Assembly (NCBI GenBank): GCA_011369465.1
Contig: DRQG01000020.1
Span: 1 to 46,292 of the forward strand
Reading direction: 5' to 3'
DNA length: 46,292 nucleotides
Source: Caldithrix abyssi
Lineage (GTDB): Bacteria > Calditrichota > Calditrichia > Calditrichales > Calditrichaceae
Made by a program: the position numbers and the translations under genes. The notes under the pieces are model-generated. The model ran no database searches. It saw nothing but the letters and a program-made list of their open reading frames with translations, and had not been told where the DNA came from. Of the stretch, positions 39,960-45,944 are shown in pieces. Within the stretch, counting starts at the first letter, position 1; every line of letters starts with the position of its first letter.

Positions 39960-41183
39960 TCAGGCCTTGAAGAGCCGTCGCAAAAAATGCGGCGTTAAAC
40001 CGAGCTGAATCAGCAATCCAAATAAGACCACGCCGTATGTAATGGATTGGATGGTGAACCAATAGTCCAGAGAAAGCGGCAGCGAAAGCGCCAAAGCAAC
40101 GGCAATGGCCCCTCGGTTACTACCCCAAAAGAGAATATGTTTATCCGCTTTGTTGAGCTTTTCCCGGACAGCAAAAAAGTTGAACAGCGGAAATACACCG
40201 TAAATACCGATGGCGCGGGCCGCCATAACGGCTATAATTCCGATGAGCATGGCTAACCAGCGTTCTGTAAACATGGCCGGAACAATGCTTATGCCCACCA
40301 ATATCATAACCAGGGCATGCGCCAGATGCGCCAGAAACGACCATAAATGAAAGAGCGTGTCCTTCTCTGAGCTTTCGGCTTTGGAATCGTAAAGAAGATT
40401 TGAAATAATGCCCAATGTTAACAGCGTCATAACGCCGGAAACATTAAACACGGTTTCCGAAAGAATAAAACCGGCATATACGGTGATGAGTATCAGAAGC
40501 AATCGCTCCGACTGTCCCTTTACCAGACGAAAAAAGAGCCAGAGGATTAATCCGCCCGCCAGGCCCGTAAGGATCCCGCCGAAAAAAAGCAAAAGAAAAT
40601 GAGACAGGGCGTCGCTCAAATGCCATGATGATTTCGACCCGAGAGCAAAATTCATTACCAGTCCGTAAATAAGGATGGACCCGGCATCATTGAACAGGCT
40701 TTCACCTTTGATCAGAAGAATCAAACGCTGCGGCGCTCCAAATTTTTCACAAAAATGCAGTATCTCCTCCGGGTCGGTGGCGGATAGAATGGTCGCAGTA
40801 AGGAAGGCGGCTGCCCAGGGAAAACCCTCGGAAGAGTCAATGCCGTCATAGAGCAGGGCAGCGCTAATGAGCAGCATAATCAGGAAAACCGGTATAGACA
40901 GAATCAGGATACTAATAAGATGGCGCATCAATGCGCGTACATCCAGCTCCAGAGCGGCGGTAAACACCAGGGCGGGTAATATCATATAAAAGGCAATGAA
41001 ACGAAAATTGAACCAGCGCAGACCTAAATCGTAGCCGGAAGAAGAAATCCACAAAGCGGCGAGGAATCCGACAAGCAGATACCACAGGCTGGACGGAACG
41101 TGAAACCGTTGAAATACCGCGGCCAACACCAGCCCGCTGAATAAAAGCAAAGCAAAGAAAAGAATTTCATTGGGAACGGTCAT
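39960..41183 (-). CDS. Cation/proton antiporter (NhaP/CPA1-like)
   Basis: 407 residues with about 12 membrane helices and almost no soluble tail. Motifs of the sodium/hydrogen exchanger family: [40 protein letters not shown] (the helix with the ion-binding aspartate, [10 protein letters not shown]), [20 protein letters not shown] (GESLFND) and [19 protein letters not shown]. The GESxxND and SATDP blocks support CPA1/NhaP-type antiport. The ion (Na+, K+ or Li+) is not readable. Its ATG overlaps the stop of the upstream aconitase-family gene by four bases with GAAGGAA as ribosome-binding site, so its translation is coupled to that enzyme, an unusual pairing. Confidence 0.88.
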
Positions 41184-43150
41184 GAAGATTCCTTCAACTG
41201 CGCCTGCACCCAGTTTTCCAATCCGGCAGCTTTGATAATTTCCTGGGCGGCCGTACCCACCGGAGCGAAAGGATAGCGTTCGTCCCCGACTTCAATAACG
41301 GCTTCTTTAAAAAGGATGCGCGCCGTAATCCCTGTCCGCACAGTCAGTTTCTCCGTGCCGAAACGTTTTTTCAGCATATCGATAAAAGGCGGGCAATCGA
41401 TGGTCAGAAAACCGTTGTTGATGGCGTTGCGTTTGTAGGTTTCGCTGAACGACCCGGCGATAACCAGCGGCAGGCCGCGATATTTAAGAGCTGTGGCCGC
41501 CTGTTCGCGCGAGCTGCCCGTGCCGAAATTGTACCCTCCGGCCAGAATATCGCCTTTTTTAACAATTTTGCCGAATTCCGGGTCGTAGTTTTCCATCACC
41601 ACTTCGGCTTGTTTCTCGGGCGTAATGTCGTCCTGATAGGTGTATTTACCCGGATAGATGCCGTCGGTGTTCAGATTGTCCTGAGGGCAAAAAATAATCT
41701 CGCCCTTGATTTCCTGCGGGAAGCCCTCGATGATGGAAACCGCAGCGCCGCCCTGCGCCGCTCTGGAATTTTGGTGTACTTCACCCTGAGGCTCTATTTG
41801 TTCGACTTCAAAGGGCAGATCGATATAACCGGCTATGGCAGAAGCGGCCACCACGGCCGGAGAGGCCAGGTAGGCGTCCGCATTGGGCGAACCCATGCGT
41901 CCCTTAAAATTACGGTTGGTGGCTGAGATACCCACTTCGCCGTCTTCCAACAAACCGGCGCCCAAACCGATGCAGGGCCCGCAGCCGGGGGGCAGGGGGA
42001 TGGCGCCGGCGTCCAGCAAATTCCGCCAGTAATCGGCTTCTTCGGCTTGTTTTTGCACTTCGCTGGAGGCGGCGGCAATATAAAATTCCACACCCGGCGC
42101 CACTTTTTTCCCTTTAACCACTTCGGCGGCAGCGGCAATATCTTCCAAACGGCTGTTTACACAGGATACCAGATAGGCCTTATTGATTTGTACCTTTTTC
42201 TTACGGATTTCATCAACGGGCGTCATTACCTTTACGGTATTAGGGCCGGATACATAGGGCCGCACCCGGCTCAGATCGAAAACGATTTCTTTGGCATAGA
42301 AGGCGTCGGGATCGGTGGCGGGGATGTTCTGTTTCAACCGCTCGATGCGCTGTTTGTCGAGACGTTTTTCCTCATCTTCATCGGACGGCACACCGGCGGG
42401 ACCGCGTTTGGCCAAATAAGCGGCGCGGGCTTGCAGCCAGTCCAGCAGAACCCGGTCTACCGGAAACACACCGGCCAGCGCGCCCCATTCGGTGGTCATA
42501 TTGGCGATGCTCAACCGCTGGTCAATGCTGAGCGCAGCTACGCCTTCGCCGCTGAATTCGATGGCGTGGTTCAGCACTTCGTCGTGATTAAAATAGCCGG
42601 CCAAAGCAAGAATAACGTCTTTCCCGCTGACGCCGGGCCTTAATTGACCTTTCAGAATCACTTTGGCAACCGGGGGAATCTGCCACCAGGTACGGCCGGT
42701 GGCCCAAATAGCCGCCGCATCGGTGCGCACAATGGGCGTACCCAGACAACCGACGCCGCCGTACATATTGGAATGGCTGTCGGATGCGACCACCATCGTT
42801 CCCGGAAAGGCGTATCCCTCTTCAATCATAATCTGATGGCCGATGCCGCGGCCGGCAGGGTAGAAATCCACGCCCATTTCTCTGGCAAAGGCTTCGATTT
42901 TGGCATATTTCTGCACGTTTTTTTCGCTTTTATCCTGAATGTTATGATCCAGAGTGAACACCGGCTGGCGGGGATTGGCCATTTTGCTGGCGCCGATGGA
43001 ACGAAATTTGGGGATGACCGCTCCGGTATTGTCATGCGTCATTACGTAAGCCGGTTGAATGGTGATGTAATCGCCGCTGTGGACTTCCGTATTCTTCTCC
43101 AGGCCAACGGCAAATTGTTGCACTATTTTTTCAATCAGATTTTGCGCCAC
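41180..43150 (-). CDS. Homoaconitase-like (Lys4-type) aconitase-family hydro-lyase
   Basis: 656 residues from a GTG with AAGGAGA six bases upstream. Aconitase superfamily with the [4Fe-4S] ligands Cys330 ([11 protein letters not shown]), Cys390 and Cys393 (GCGPCIGLG), then [14 protein letters not shown] and the swivel-domain [13 protein letters not shown]. The distinctive blocks [94 protein letters not shown] and [13 protein letters not shown] are those I recall from fungal homoaconitase Lys4, not from mitochondrial-type aconitase or LeuC. Homoaconitase interconverts homocitrate or homoaconitate with homoisocitrate in 2-aminoadipate lysine synthesis; the enzyme here might instead serve as an aconitase. 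No other lysine gene is nearby. Coupled to the antiporter gene. Confidence 0.8.
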
Positions 43151-43326: not shown

Positions 43327-44403
43327 TTGCAAGGGAAAAGTACATTAGCGGATTTTCTGATTAAAGAGTGGTTGCTGCTTGCTTCTGCCGCGGGCTTTCT
43401 GCTTACCTCATTGTACGTGGCCCATCTGCCTTCCTATTCTCTTGATGAAATAGAAGTTCTGGCCATTTTATTTACCCTCTTTGTTGCTGTTAAAGGTCTT
43501 GAACGCTGCGGCTTTATCGAAAATATTTCAAACCGGCTGGAAAAGGGTAAATGGATACCGCTTAAACTGGTGCTGGCCACCTTCTTCCTTTCCATGCTGA
43601 TTACCAACGATGCCGCTTTAATTGTTATCATACCGTTAACCCTGGCTTTAAATGTGGAAAGGAAGGATATACTTATCATCCTGGAAGCGCTGGCTGCTAA
43701 CGCCGGTTCGGCTTTAACCCCATTCGGAAATCCGCAAAATCTCTATATTTATTGGTTTTATCGTTTGAAGCCGCTCACGTTTATTACTGAAATCGCACCG
43801 TATTCTCTTGTTTTCCTTATTTTATTAAGTATAGCATCACTTCTGGTTAAAAACGAAAATAATATTTCTTCGCAAAAAACAACGGTTAAAATAAATAAAA
43901 AGTCTGCTGTCTATGTTATTCTGATTATTCTTGTACTGTTGGCCGTGCTGCGTCTTCTGCCTGTGACGGTTATCGCAGTTGTACCGCTATATGTTCTTTT
44001 GTTTGACCGGAAAAGCCTGCAGGTTGATTACGCACTGTTGTTCAGTCTGTTCTTCTTTTTCGGGCTTGCAGACAATATGAAAGCGTTACTTGCTGTGGAA
44101 GTAAGCCATTCCGAACATGTCTTCATATTTTCGGCGCTGGCCAGCCAGTTTTTGAGTAATGTACCGGTAGCTTTATTGTTTGCCAACTTTACAACAAAGT
44201 GGCAGGCTCTGCTTTGGGGAACAAATGCCGGTGGATTCGGCAGCCTGTTCGGTTCTATTGCCAATTTAATTGCCTACAAGTTGTATGTGAACCATAAAAA
44301 CATCAATAACAGCGCTGTGTTTACCATAAAATTTTTGGCATTGGGTTATATTTCGTTTTTTATCAGCATCGGGTTATATTTTCTTGTTAAAAATATAATT
44401 TAA
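43327..44403 (+). CDS. SLC13/ArsB-superfamily anion permease
   Basis: 358 residues from a TTG start with GGAG five bases upstream. Nine or ten membrane helices. Family-type blocks are FLSMLITNDAALIVIIPLTL, NAGSALTPFGNPQNLYIYWF in the first half and SNVPVALLFANFT and GTNAGGFGSLFGSIANLIAY in the second. The paired NDAAL/GNPQN and SNVP/NAGG motifs are the re-entrant substrate loops of the ion-transporter superfamily that includes SLC13, CitM, NhaD and ArsB. The protein is shorter than most (usually about 420). The substrate is unknown; small SLC13-family permeases of this sort are often annotated only as anion transporters. It stands divergent from the homoaconitase gene, and a larger SLC13 carrier follows 35 bases downstream. 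Confidence 0.8.
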   Translation: MQGKSTLADFLIKEWLLLASAAGFLLTSLYVAHLPSYSLDEIEVLAILFTLFVAVKGLERCGFIENISNRLEKGKWIPLKLVLATFFLSMLITNDAALIVIIPLTLALNVERKDILIILEALAANAGSALTPFGNPQNLYIYWFYRLKPLTFITEIAPYSLVFLILLSIASLLVKNENNISSQKTTVKINKKSAVYVILIILVLLAVLRLLPVTVIAVVPLYVLLFDRKSLQVDYALLFSLFFFFGLADNMKALLAVEVSHSEHVFIFSALASQFLSNVPVALLFANFTTKWQALLWGTNAGGFGSLFGSIANLIAYKLYVNHKNINNSAVFTIKFLALGYISFFISIGLYFLVKNII

Positions 44404-44438
44404 TCAAGTGGAAATTGCAGATAGAAGGGAAGAATAAG

Positions 44439-45944
44439 ATGTACACGTCACGACAGCGCTTCGGATTATTCCTCGGCCCGGTTTTGTTTTTACTCATCTT
44501 AATGCTGCCGCTTCCGGCCGGTTTAAAACCGGAGGGGCTGAAAGTGGCTGCGGTTACCATACTGATGGCCACCTGGTGGATAACGGAAGCCATTCCCATC
44601 CCGGCCACGGCCTTGTTGCCCATCGGCTTATTTCCCGCTCTCAACGTGATGAAATCCGGGGCGGCCACCGCTCCCTACGCCAATCATCTTATCTTCCTCT
44701 TCCTGGGCGGATTTTTTATCGCCATTGCTATGGAAAAATGGAAACTGCACCGCCGTATCGCCCTGCATACCATACGTTTGGTCGGCACCAGTTCGTCGCG
44801 CATCATCCTGGGATTCATGATTGCCACGGCTTTTCTTTCCATGTGGATCAGCAATACTGCCACCACCATGATGATGATGCCCATCGGTCTGTCGGTGATA
44901 AATAAGACGGTGGAACACATAAAAAAACACAATGTAAAGGGTATCGATACCACACCCACGCAGTTCCGTTTCGGGTCGGCGCTGATGCTGGGGATTGCCT
45001 ATGCCGCGTCCATCGGCGGCGTGGCCACGATCATCGGTACGCCGCCCAATACCATCCTGGTCGGTTTTATCGAAAAACTGTATCACCAGCAAGTCAGCTT
45101 CTCATTATGGATGGCCTTCGGTGTTCCGCTGGCTGTTATTATGCTGGCGATTAGCTGGTTTTACCTGGTGCGGTTCGCCCTGCCGCCCGAACTGAAAACC
45201 TTACCCGGCGGTAAAGAACATATTCTGCAGGAATTGAAGGAATTAGGTTCGATAACCAAAGCGGAACGGCGCGTTCTTATCGTTTTTGTACTGGTGGCCA
45301 TGGCCTGGATTATCCGCGGTTTTATCAAACTGGAAAATTTGATGATTCACGACGCAACCATTGCCATGCTCGGCGCCTCTTTGTTATTTGTTATTCCGGC
45401 TGATTTCAAAAAAGGCCGGTTTCTGCTGGACTGGAAATCGGCGGTGCGGGCGCCCTGGGATGTCATTATTCTTTTTGGCGGTGGATTGTCACTGGCCAAT
45501 GCCTTTAGCGTAACAGGGTTGGCGGACTGGATCGGCGGACGCCTCCATATTTTGCAAGGCATGCCGCTTATAATTATTATATTTGTGGTCATTATCGTAG
45601 CCATGCTACTCACCGAAGTAACCTCCAACACGGCTACCACCGCCATGCTGATCCCTGTTATGGCCGGTATTGCCGTTGGTATGGCCGTCCATCCCTTCGG
45701 ACTGATGATTGCAGCCGCCGTGGCGTCGTCTTATGCTTTTATGCTGCCCGTGGCCACGCCGCCCAACGCCATTGTTTTCGGTAGCAAGCAGATTACCATC
45801 CCGCAAATGATGCGCGTAGGCATAGTGCTGGATATCATCGGCAGCGTGTTGATTACTTTCTTTTTAATGTACGTTATCCCCTTGTTGTGGGGCATAAACA
45901 TGCATAGCATGCCCCAATGGTTGTCGATGCTGTTGCATCCCTGA
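44439..45944 (+). CDS. SLC13/DASS-family sodium:dicarboxylate symporter
   Basis: 501 residues from ATG 44439, chosen because GAAGGGAAG lies just upstream; a TTG at 44415 is in frame but has no such site. Divalent anion:Na+ symporter motifs: ATWWITEAIPIPATALLPIG, the first SNT block MWISNTATTMMMMPIGLSV, ASIGGVATIIGTPPNTILVG, the second SNT block LLTEVTSNTATTAMLIPVMA, and MLPVATPPNAIVFGSKQI. The two SNT/TP-PN motifs form the Na+ and dicarboxylate sites in characterised members. It probably imports C4-dicarboxylates or related anions using the Na+ gradient that Nqr would build. Eleven or so helices; full length for the family. Confidence 0.92.
   Translation: MYTSRQRFGLFLGPVLFLLILMLPLPAGLKPEGLKVAAVTILMATWWITEAIPIPATALLPIGLFPALNVMKSGAATAPYANHLIFLFLGGFFIAIAMEKWKLHRRIALHTIRLVGTSSSRIILGFMIATAFLSMWISNTATTMMMMPIGLSVINKTVEHIKKHNVKGIDTTPTQFRFGSALMLGIAYAASIGGVATIIGTPPNTILVGFIEKLYHQQVSFSLWMAFGVPLAVIMLAISWFYLVRFALPPELKTLPGGKEHILQELKELGSITKAERRVLIVFVLVAMAWIIRGFIKLENLMIHDATIAMLGASLLFVIPADFKKGRFLLDWKSAVRAPWDVIILFGGGLSLANAFSVTGLADWIGGRLHILQGMPLIIIIFVVIIVAMLLTEVTSNTATTAMLIPVMAGIAVGMAVHPFGLMIAAAVASSYAFMLPVATPPNAIVFGSKQITIPQMMRVGIVLDIIGSVLITFFLMYVIPLLWGINMHSMPQWLSMLLHP

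Follow-up and report, generated by a model that had tools for sequence, protein, structure and literature searches.

A Lys4-type homoaconitase in Caldithrix abyssi and related bacteria, and a putative module that would run the homocitrate steps of lysine synthesis in reverse

A contig of Caldithrix abyssi (46,292 nucleotides; GenBank assembly GCA_011369465.1, contig DRQG01000020.1; hereafter the window) carries a gene for a 656-residue, single-chain homoaconitase of the Lys4 type, read on the reverse strand from a GTG start (positions 41180–43150). Its membership in the Lys4-type homoaconitase family is confirmed by the profile and tree analyses given below. We consider it somewhat probable that the product is a reversible homoisocitrate/homoaconitate hydratase, which would serve lysine synthesis where a homocitrate synthase (HCS) exists and, more widely, a reverse route that turns 2-oxoadipate and CO2 into 2-oxoglutarate and an acetyl unit; catalysis and direction are read here from sequence and gene context. 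A preliminary description of the window is partly supported: it named the family correctly and rightly pointed to a different lysine route, and it missed the wider module.

The window protein scores 895.7 bits on the NCBIfam homoaconitase equivalog TIGR00139, against a cut-off of 529.9, and its second-best NCBIfam model reaches 379 bits, under that model's own cut-off. The two aconitase domains, PF00330 and PF00694, are fused in one chain, and the GTG start, preceded by a strong ribosome-binding site (aggaaggagaacataGTG), falls at the same aligned position as the ATG in relatives. That the protein is an ordinary aconitase or a LeuC, mistaken for a homoaconitase, has next to no probability and is refuted at the family level. 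The proteins belong to the same superfamily, and the window protein shares ~27–35% identity with the aconitase-type and LeuC proteins it was compared with, but its scores fall far under the cut-offs for mitochondrial aconitase (177 vs. 825 bits), AcnA (136 vs. 945), AcnB (74 vs. 1287), and LeuC (188 vs. 560), and the LeuCD of this genome sits elsewhere, in an ilv/leu operon. The two-subunit homoaconitase (HacA/HacB, LysT/U) is excluded by the single-chain architecture and by low scores on NF040615 (295 vs. 550) and NF040604 (88 vs. 230), in agreement with the earlier assignment to Lys4 over AcnA/AcnB and the two-subunit LeuCD and homoaconitase.

In a tree of the aconitase superfamily, the bacterial Lys4 proteins join yeast Lys4 with 100/100 support, apart from aconitases, LeuC, and a 607-aa hydratase of Caldithrix-like genomes. 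The yeast row is a provisional sequence, not a database record, which we take to represent Lys4 and use as a lead, the evidence for membership being the profile test. This provisional sequence scores 1395.5 bits over its full length on TIGR00139 and shares 57% of its residues with the window protein across 683 aligned columns. It branches outside the 33 bacterial Lys4 rows (92/83 support), a branching that does not indicate the direction of transfer and so neither supports nor weakens the earlier suggestion that bacteria were the source of the fungal enzyme, in a tree with long outgroup branches and this single eukaryotic row, itself checked by profile score alone.

The residues expected of a Lys4 enzyme are in place. 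Three cysteines, C330, C390, and C393 (positions 41972–42163, reverse strand), correspond to the [4Fe-4S] ligands noted in the preliminary description and are invariant in 14 relatives from the phylum. The three sequence blocks on which that description relied are exact matches, all on the reverse strand. Block 1 (11 residues, 42755–42787) follows a pattern, ASDSHSN[MT]YGG, found in 85 of 90 bacterial relatives, and block 2 (17 residues, 42671–42721) differs by one residue from the provisional yeast Lys4. Block 3 (13 residues, 41627–41665) lies in the small (swivel) domain, is identical in the provisional yeast protein, and contains TDGI[YF]PGKYTY in 87 of 90 relatives. A loop of the small subunit sets substrate specificity in LeuD/HacB, and by this parallel block 3 is likely the substrate-specificity loop. 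The window protein would be predicted to interconvert homoisocitrate and cis-homoaconitate.

The distribution of the gene marks Lys4 as an old, conserved bacterial family whose named carriers are bacteria of the FCB (Fibrobacteres–Chlorobi–Bacteroidetes) superphylum. Among 40 Calditrichota genomes, that of the window included, 29 encode a protein over the TIGR00139 cut-off and one more copy is truncated at a contig end, giving 30 Lys4-positive genomes. A search across bacterial and archaeal genomes returned at least 419 relatives; 80 loci were retained, from Calditrichota, Ignavibacteria/Melioribacter, Zixibacteria, KSB1, Marinimicrobia, unclassified Bacteroidetes, and a few otherwise labelled bins, with Lys4 proteins 65–75% identical to that of the window. 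Contamination and recent transfer from a eukaryote were considered and ruled out, because the gene is kept through the phylum at 63–75% identity and in bacterial contexts.

One cluster of the window genome encodes an HCS-like protein, LysW (57 aa, with an EDWGQ tail), LysX, LysY, LysZ, and LysJ. LysX (358 bits) and LysZ are over their cut-offs, LysJ is under its own equivalog cut-off, LysK was not found on inspection, and DapB, the only gene of the diaminopimelate pathway tested, is absent from the genome. At the genome level, this is the gene complement of the LysW-type aminoadipate pathway, which bears out the different lysine route suggested earlier. Kublanov 2017 (PMC5317091) described the same LysW cluster for Caldithrix abyssi, with the other steps of the pathway left unassigned. 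For its homoaconitase step Lys4 is the best candidate, because the genome has only two other PF00330 proteins, an aconitase of 755 aa and the LeuC of the ilv/leu operon, all 11 Calditrichota genomes with an HCS-like gene carry Lys4 together with the dehydrogenase described below, and two nearly complete genomes with LysX (G025 and G026) lack both the HCS-like gene and Lys4. The separate aconitase and the leucine-operon LeuCD also disfavor the moonlighting aconitase that had been offered as one explanation. In lysine synthesis, Lys4 would be the missing homoaconitase and the linked dehydrogenase, one of three PF00180 proteins in the genome beside LeuB and a 343-aa protein resembling isocitrate dehydrogenase (IDH), would be the homoisocitrate dehydrogenase. 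The route as a whole would then have a fungal-type front end and a Thermus-type back end. Two points count against this assignment: the HCS-like protein is under its curated cut-off (340.9 vs. 413.6), and LeuCD could take part in lysine synthesis, as it does in some archaea.

Two further features of the lysine clusters were observed. An open reading frame (ORF) resembling class II glutamine amidotransferases lies between LysY and LysZ (L044:5792–6493, reverse strand; also in L046, L048, L052, and L054), where the LysK hydrolase might be expected. LysW-X-Y-Z-J clusters without homocitrate synthase occur at L050 (G025) and L054 (G033), perhaps for ornithine/arginine.

Most carriers of Lys4 have no recognizable HCS. 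The HCS-like gene is absent from 19 of the 30 Lys4-positive Calditrichota genomes, some of them 95–97% complete, and most of these 19 also lack LysX; outside the phylum, no HCS-like match of at least 40% identity was found in 28 of 34 carriers. These counts bear on a purely biosynthetic explanation, in which the homoaconitase serves lysine synthesis only and the HCS-less genomes use an unrecognized HCS or lost the pathway recently. Such an explanation is consistent with the presence of Lys4 in every phylum genome that has an HCS-like gene, and with the LysW cluster of the window genome. We judge it improbable, given that HCS and mostly LysX are missing even from nearly complete genomes, that Lys4 is still 63–75% identical in carriers beyond the phylum, and that the lyases encoded in the operon would destroy homocitrate. 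The wide occurrence of Lys4 without HCS, in an operon with lyases, suggests instead a second, perhaps primary, catabolic role.

The complete operon, present in 23 of the 80 loci, encodes a 390-aa β-decarboxylating dehydrogenase, an HD protein, Lys4, an MmgE/PrpD protein, a CitD–CitE fusion, and CitF; the HD protein is found near Lys4 in 52 loci and the MmgE/PrpD protein in 50. In Calditrichota, where Lys4 stands apart from the module genes, Lys4 and the dehydrogenase occur together in 26 of the 40 genomes, with Lys4 only in 4, dehydrogenase only in 1, and neither in 9. All four Lys4-only genomes are <90% complete, and the same counts for genomes at least 90% complete are 19, 0, 0, and 5. At the genus level they are 18, 2, 0, and 8; since related genomes were counted, p-values are only a guide, which tempers the association. 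In the window genome, a cluster on contig C25 encodes a TrmB-type regulator, a citryl-CoA lyase (289.7 vs. a cut-off of 245), the HD protein, the dehydrogenase, and MmgE; a similar dehydrogenase cluster is found in most Calditrichaceae, often with CitF alongside. Small ORFs of the four-helix-bundle (23S-intervening) and GxxExxY types were also seen, repeatedly inserted in the Lys4 operon at varying positions (L066, L079, L088, L130, L133, L140, and others).

The composition of the module varies around a constant core. On the lyase side, other families have either a CoA-ligase pair with a citryl-CoA lyase, or a 3-hydroxy-3-methylglutaryl (HMG)-CoA lyase with a class III CoA-transferase, and one family (f2) has a carbonic anhydrase between the dehydrogenase and HMG-CoA lyase. 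On the hydratase side, Caldithrix (G001) and a second genome (G036) group the dehydrogenase, (HD), a different 607-aa hydratase, CitDE, and CitF. The sole dehydrogenase-positive genome without Lys4 (G037), which also lacks LeuA, encodes in a row the dehydrogenase, HMG-CoA lyase, CoA-transferase, and a two-subunit homoaconitase-family enzyme. The dehydrogenase, hydratase(s), and acetyl-releasing lyase of the proposed reverse homocitrate module were thus found to co-occur. The core consists of a dehydrogenase, an aconitase-type hydratase, and an acetyl-releasing enzyme, with non-homologous parts swapped and four unrelated lyase sets, and would amount to one turn of 2-oxoacid chain elongation.

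The 607-aa hydratase is a single-chain protein of the aconitase superfamily (L141:8270–10093, reverse strand; L156:7005–8831, forward strand) that scores over the cut-off of a homoaconitate-hydratase family model. It replaces the hydratase inside the CitDE–CitF operon of Caldithrix-like genomes, which retain Lys4 elsewhere.

Genes for lysine degradation accompany the module. In the window genome, saccharopine dehydrogenase adjoins lysine-ketoglutarate reductase (LKR), which matches human AASS at 2e-86, and the C-terminal domain of saccharopine dehydrogenase occurs in 41 of 48 carriers and relatives, as opposed to 2 of 14 control genomes. One carrier (G073) encodes an antiquitin-type aminoadipate-semialdehyde dehydrogenase, saccharopine dehydrogenase, and LKR ~4 kb past the CitF of the operon. 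Antiquitin was also considered as a universal partner of Lys4 and set aside, the association being weak (p 0.05).

From these genes we propose the following route. Lysine would pass through saccharopine and aminoadipate to 2-oxoadipate, which the module dehydrogenase would carboxylate to homoisocitrate with CO2 and NAD(P)H. Lys4 would convert homoisocitrate to cis-homoaconitate, and the MmgE/PrpD protein or an aconitase would hydrate the latter to homocitrate. Homocitrate would then be cleaved to 2-oxoglutarate and acetate or acetyl-CoA by CitDEF, by citryl-CoA lyase acting with either CitF or a CoA ligase, or by a CoA-transferase and an HMG-CoA-lyase-like protein. The reverse direction is likely because lyases stand in the place of synthases and because one family has a carbonic anhydrase beside the dehydrogenase, as expected for a carboxylation. 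Fungal Lys4p and LysF catalyze only the homoaconitate/homoisocitrate half of the reaction, with an equilibrium far toward homocitrate (Fazius 2012, PMC3556520), which makes the reverse direction feasible and calls for a second hydratase, for which the PrpD-like protein is a candidate. We propose this use for most other carriers and, besides synthesis, for the window genome.

The main rival explanation places the same module on citrate: 2-oxoglutarate and CO2 would yield isocitrate, cis-aconitate, citrate, and finally oxaloacetate and acetyl, in a branch resembling the reductive tricarboxylic acid (TCA) cycle or glutamate fermentation, with Lys4 as a second aconitase. Curated models speak for it, naming the lyase parts citrate lyase or citryl-CoA lyase, as do the IDH-like character of the module dehydrogenase, whose top PDB match is an IDH, the anaerobic or facultatively anaerobic hosts with TCA genes (PMC5317091, PMC3534657), and one closed genome, only 92% complete (G039), in which Lys4 is the sole aconitase-superfamily gene found. 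PDB matches, tried as a guide to the specificity of the dehydrogenase, proved not decisive. The dehydrogenase scores best with curated homoisocitrate dehydrogenases (255–287 bits, vs. 222–245 for IDH, all below cut-offs), and SPIV replaces the Ser-x-Asn substrate motif of IDH. Nearly all Lys4 carriers keep an ordinary aconitase, and many, including the window genome, a further IDH-like gene. The hydratase is a homoaconitase-family protein that retains the conserved blocks, the two-subunit enzyme that replaces it in G037 is also of the homoaconitase family, and the fungal enzymes have higher activity with homoisocitrate than with isocitrate, ~20-fold for Lys4p and ~4-fold for LysF (PMC3556520, table 1). 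We therefore regard a citrate module as rather unlikely. The homo-level substrate is favored by the hydratase family and its conserved loop, by the separate aconitases and IDH-like genes, by the dehydrogenase scores and missing motif, by the lysine-degrading genes at hand, and by the half-reaction and equilibrium of Lys4p/LysF. In short, the Lys4 family, the G037 replacement, and the saccharopine linkage point to homocitrate, while the lyase models say citrate.

Several observations weigh against the homocitrate route. The operon lyase is named for citrate by its models, so that citrate may be the substrate; the CitF of one Calditrichota genome passes the curated cut-off for citrate-lyase alpha, and CitF was not located in the window genome. 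Saccharopine genes also occur in two Lys4-free genomes (G025 and G031), and antiquitin was found neither in the window genome nor in most Zixibacteria examined, in keeping with its weak association with Lys4. MmgE/PrpD proteins carry out several chemistries; the module protein scores 87 bits against a PrpD cut-off of 575, and its nearest solved structures, all remote, are cis-aconitate decarboxylases and an epimerase. These decarboxylases raise the alternative of an itaconate- or citramalate-type route, in which the MmgE/PrpD protein decarboxylates an intermediate of the aconitate type and a citramalyl-type thioester is the substrate cleaved by the CitE-like part. The CitE part does match the itaconate-pathway lyase RipC (166 bits), but it scores higher with CitE (288 bits), the MmgE similarity is remote and equal to that with an epimerase, and full CitD–CitE–CitF sets have tricarboxylate-type compounds or citramalate as their substrates; we consider such a route very unlikely.

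If the reverse homocitrate route is taken a step further, FCB bacteria would run the fungal α-aminoadipate pathway in reverse, ending in a homocitrate lyase that comes in four interchangeable, non-homologous versions, and the module may be the ancestor of fungal Lys4, possibly also of the partner dehydrogenase, or have a common origin with them. We offer this broader proposal tentatively, with doubts that slightly outweigh our confidence.

Elsewhere in the window, a Na+/H+ antiporter family protein (39960–41183, reverse strand) is encoded directly downstream of Lys4, with a 4-base overlap (ATGA) between its start and the stop of the homoaconitase gene, and the two genes are probably co-transcribed. 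This arrangement was seen only in the window genome among those examined and is a singleton in neighborhood clustering. On the other side, two divergent CitMHS/sodium:sulfate-symporter transporters of the di/tricarboxylate type (43327–45944, forward strand) are not conserved neighbors. In two Calditrichota families, Lys4 is divergent from adjoining mevalonate genes (mvaD, mevalonate kinase, HMG-CoA reductase, and isopentenyl diphosphate isomerase; L051, L056, L061, L062, and L064). A functional link was set aside in favor of ancient synteny, the module genes lying elsewhere in those two families. At one locus (L049:5017–7557, G014), an 846-aa Cas9-like protein is encoded between mvaD and Lys4, together with neighboring CRISPR-type genes.

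Taken together, the analysis supplies a candidate for an unassigned step of Caldithrix-type lysine synthesis, finds the 'fungal' homoaconitase to be common in a large bacterial superphylum, and bears on the origin of the eukaryotic lysine pathway. It also names a concrete gene set for an apparently undescribed route of lysine/2-oxoadipate degradation; neither a homocitrate lyase nor such a route was described in the open-licence papers searched.

Compared with known systems, the window protein resembles fungal Lys4/LysF of the α-aminoadipate pathway (TIGR00139) in its single chain, both domains, three cysteines, signature blocks, and ~57% identity to the provisional yeast Lys4. Unlike the fungal enzymes, it is a bacterial protein with no mitochondrial leader, and its relatives occur mostly in HCS-less genomes and in a lyase-containing operon. 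The window genome shares with the LysW pathway of Thermus and Caldithrix (PMC5317091) the HCS-like gene, the LysW/X/Y/Z/J cluster, and the lack of DapB, whereas its homoaconitase is of the fungal single-chain type and located elsewhere, the Thermus enzyme having two subunits. Like the 2-methylcitrate cycle (PrpD with AcnD/AcnB), the module would divide one isomerization between two proteins, an iron-sulfur hydratase and a member of the PrpD family, and like citrate lyase CitDEF it has a CitD–CitE fusion and CitF; it differs from both in adding a β-decarboxylating dehydrogenase and Lys4, and its PrpD similarity is remote. Finally, many carriers encode homologs of the LKR, saccharopine dehydrogenase, and antiquitin of mammalian and plant saccharopine catabolism (AASS, ALDH7A1), in which 2-oxoadipate is oxidized to glutaryl-CoA; in the bacterial route proposed here, it would instead be carboxylated to homoisocitrate.

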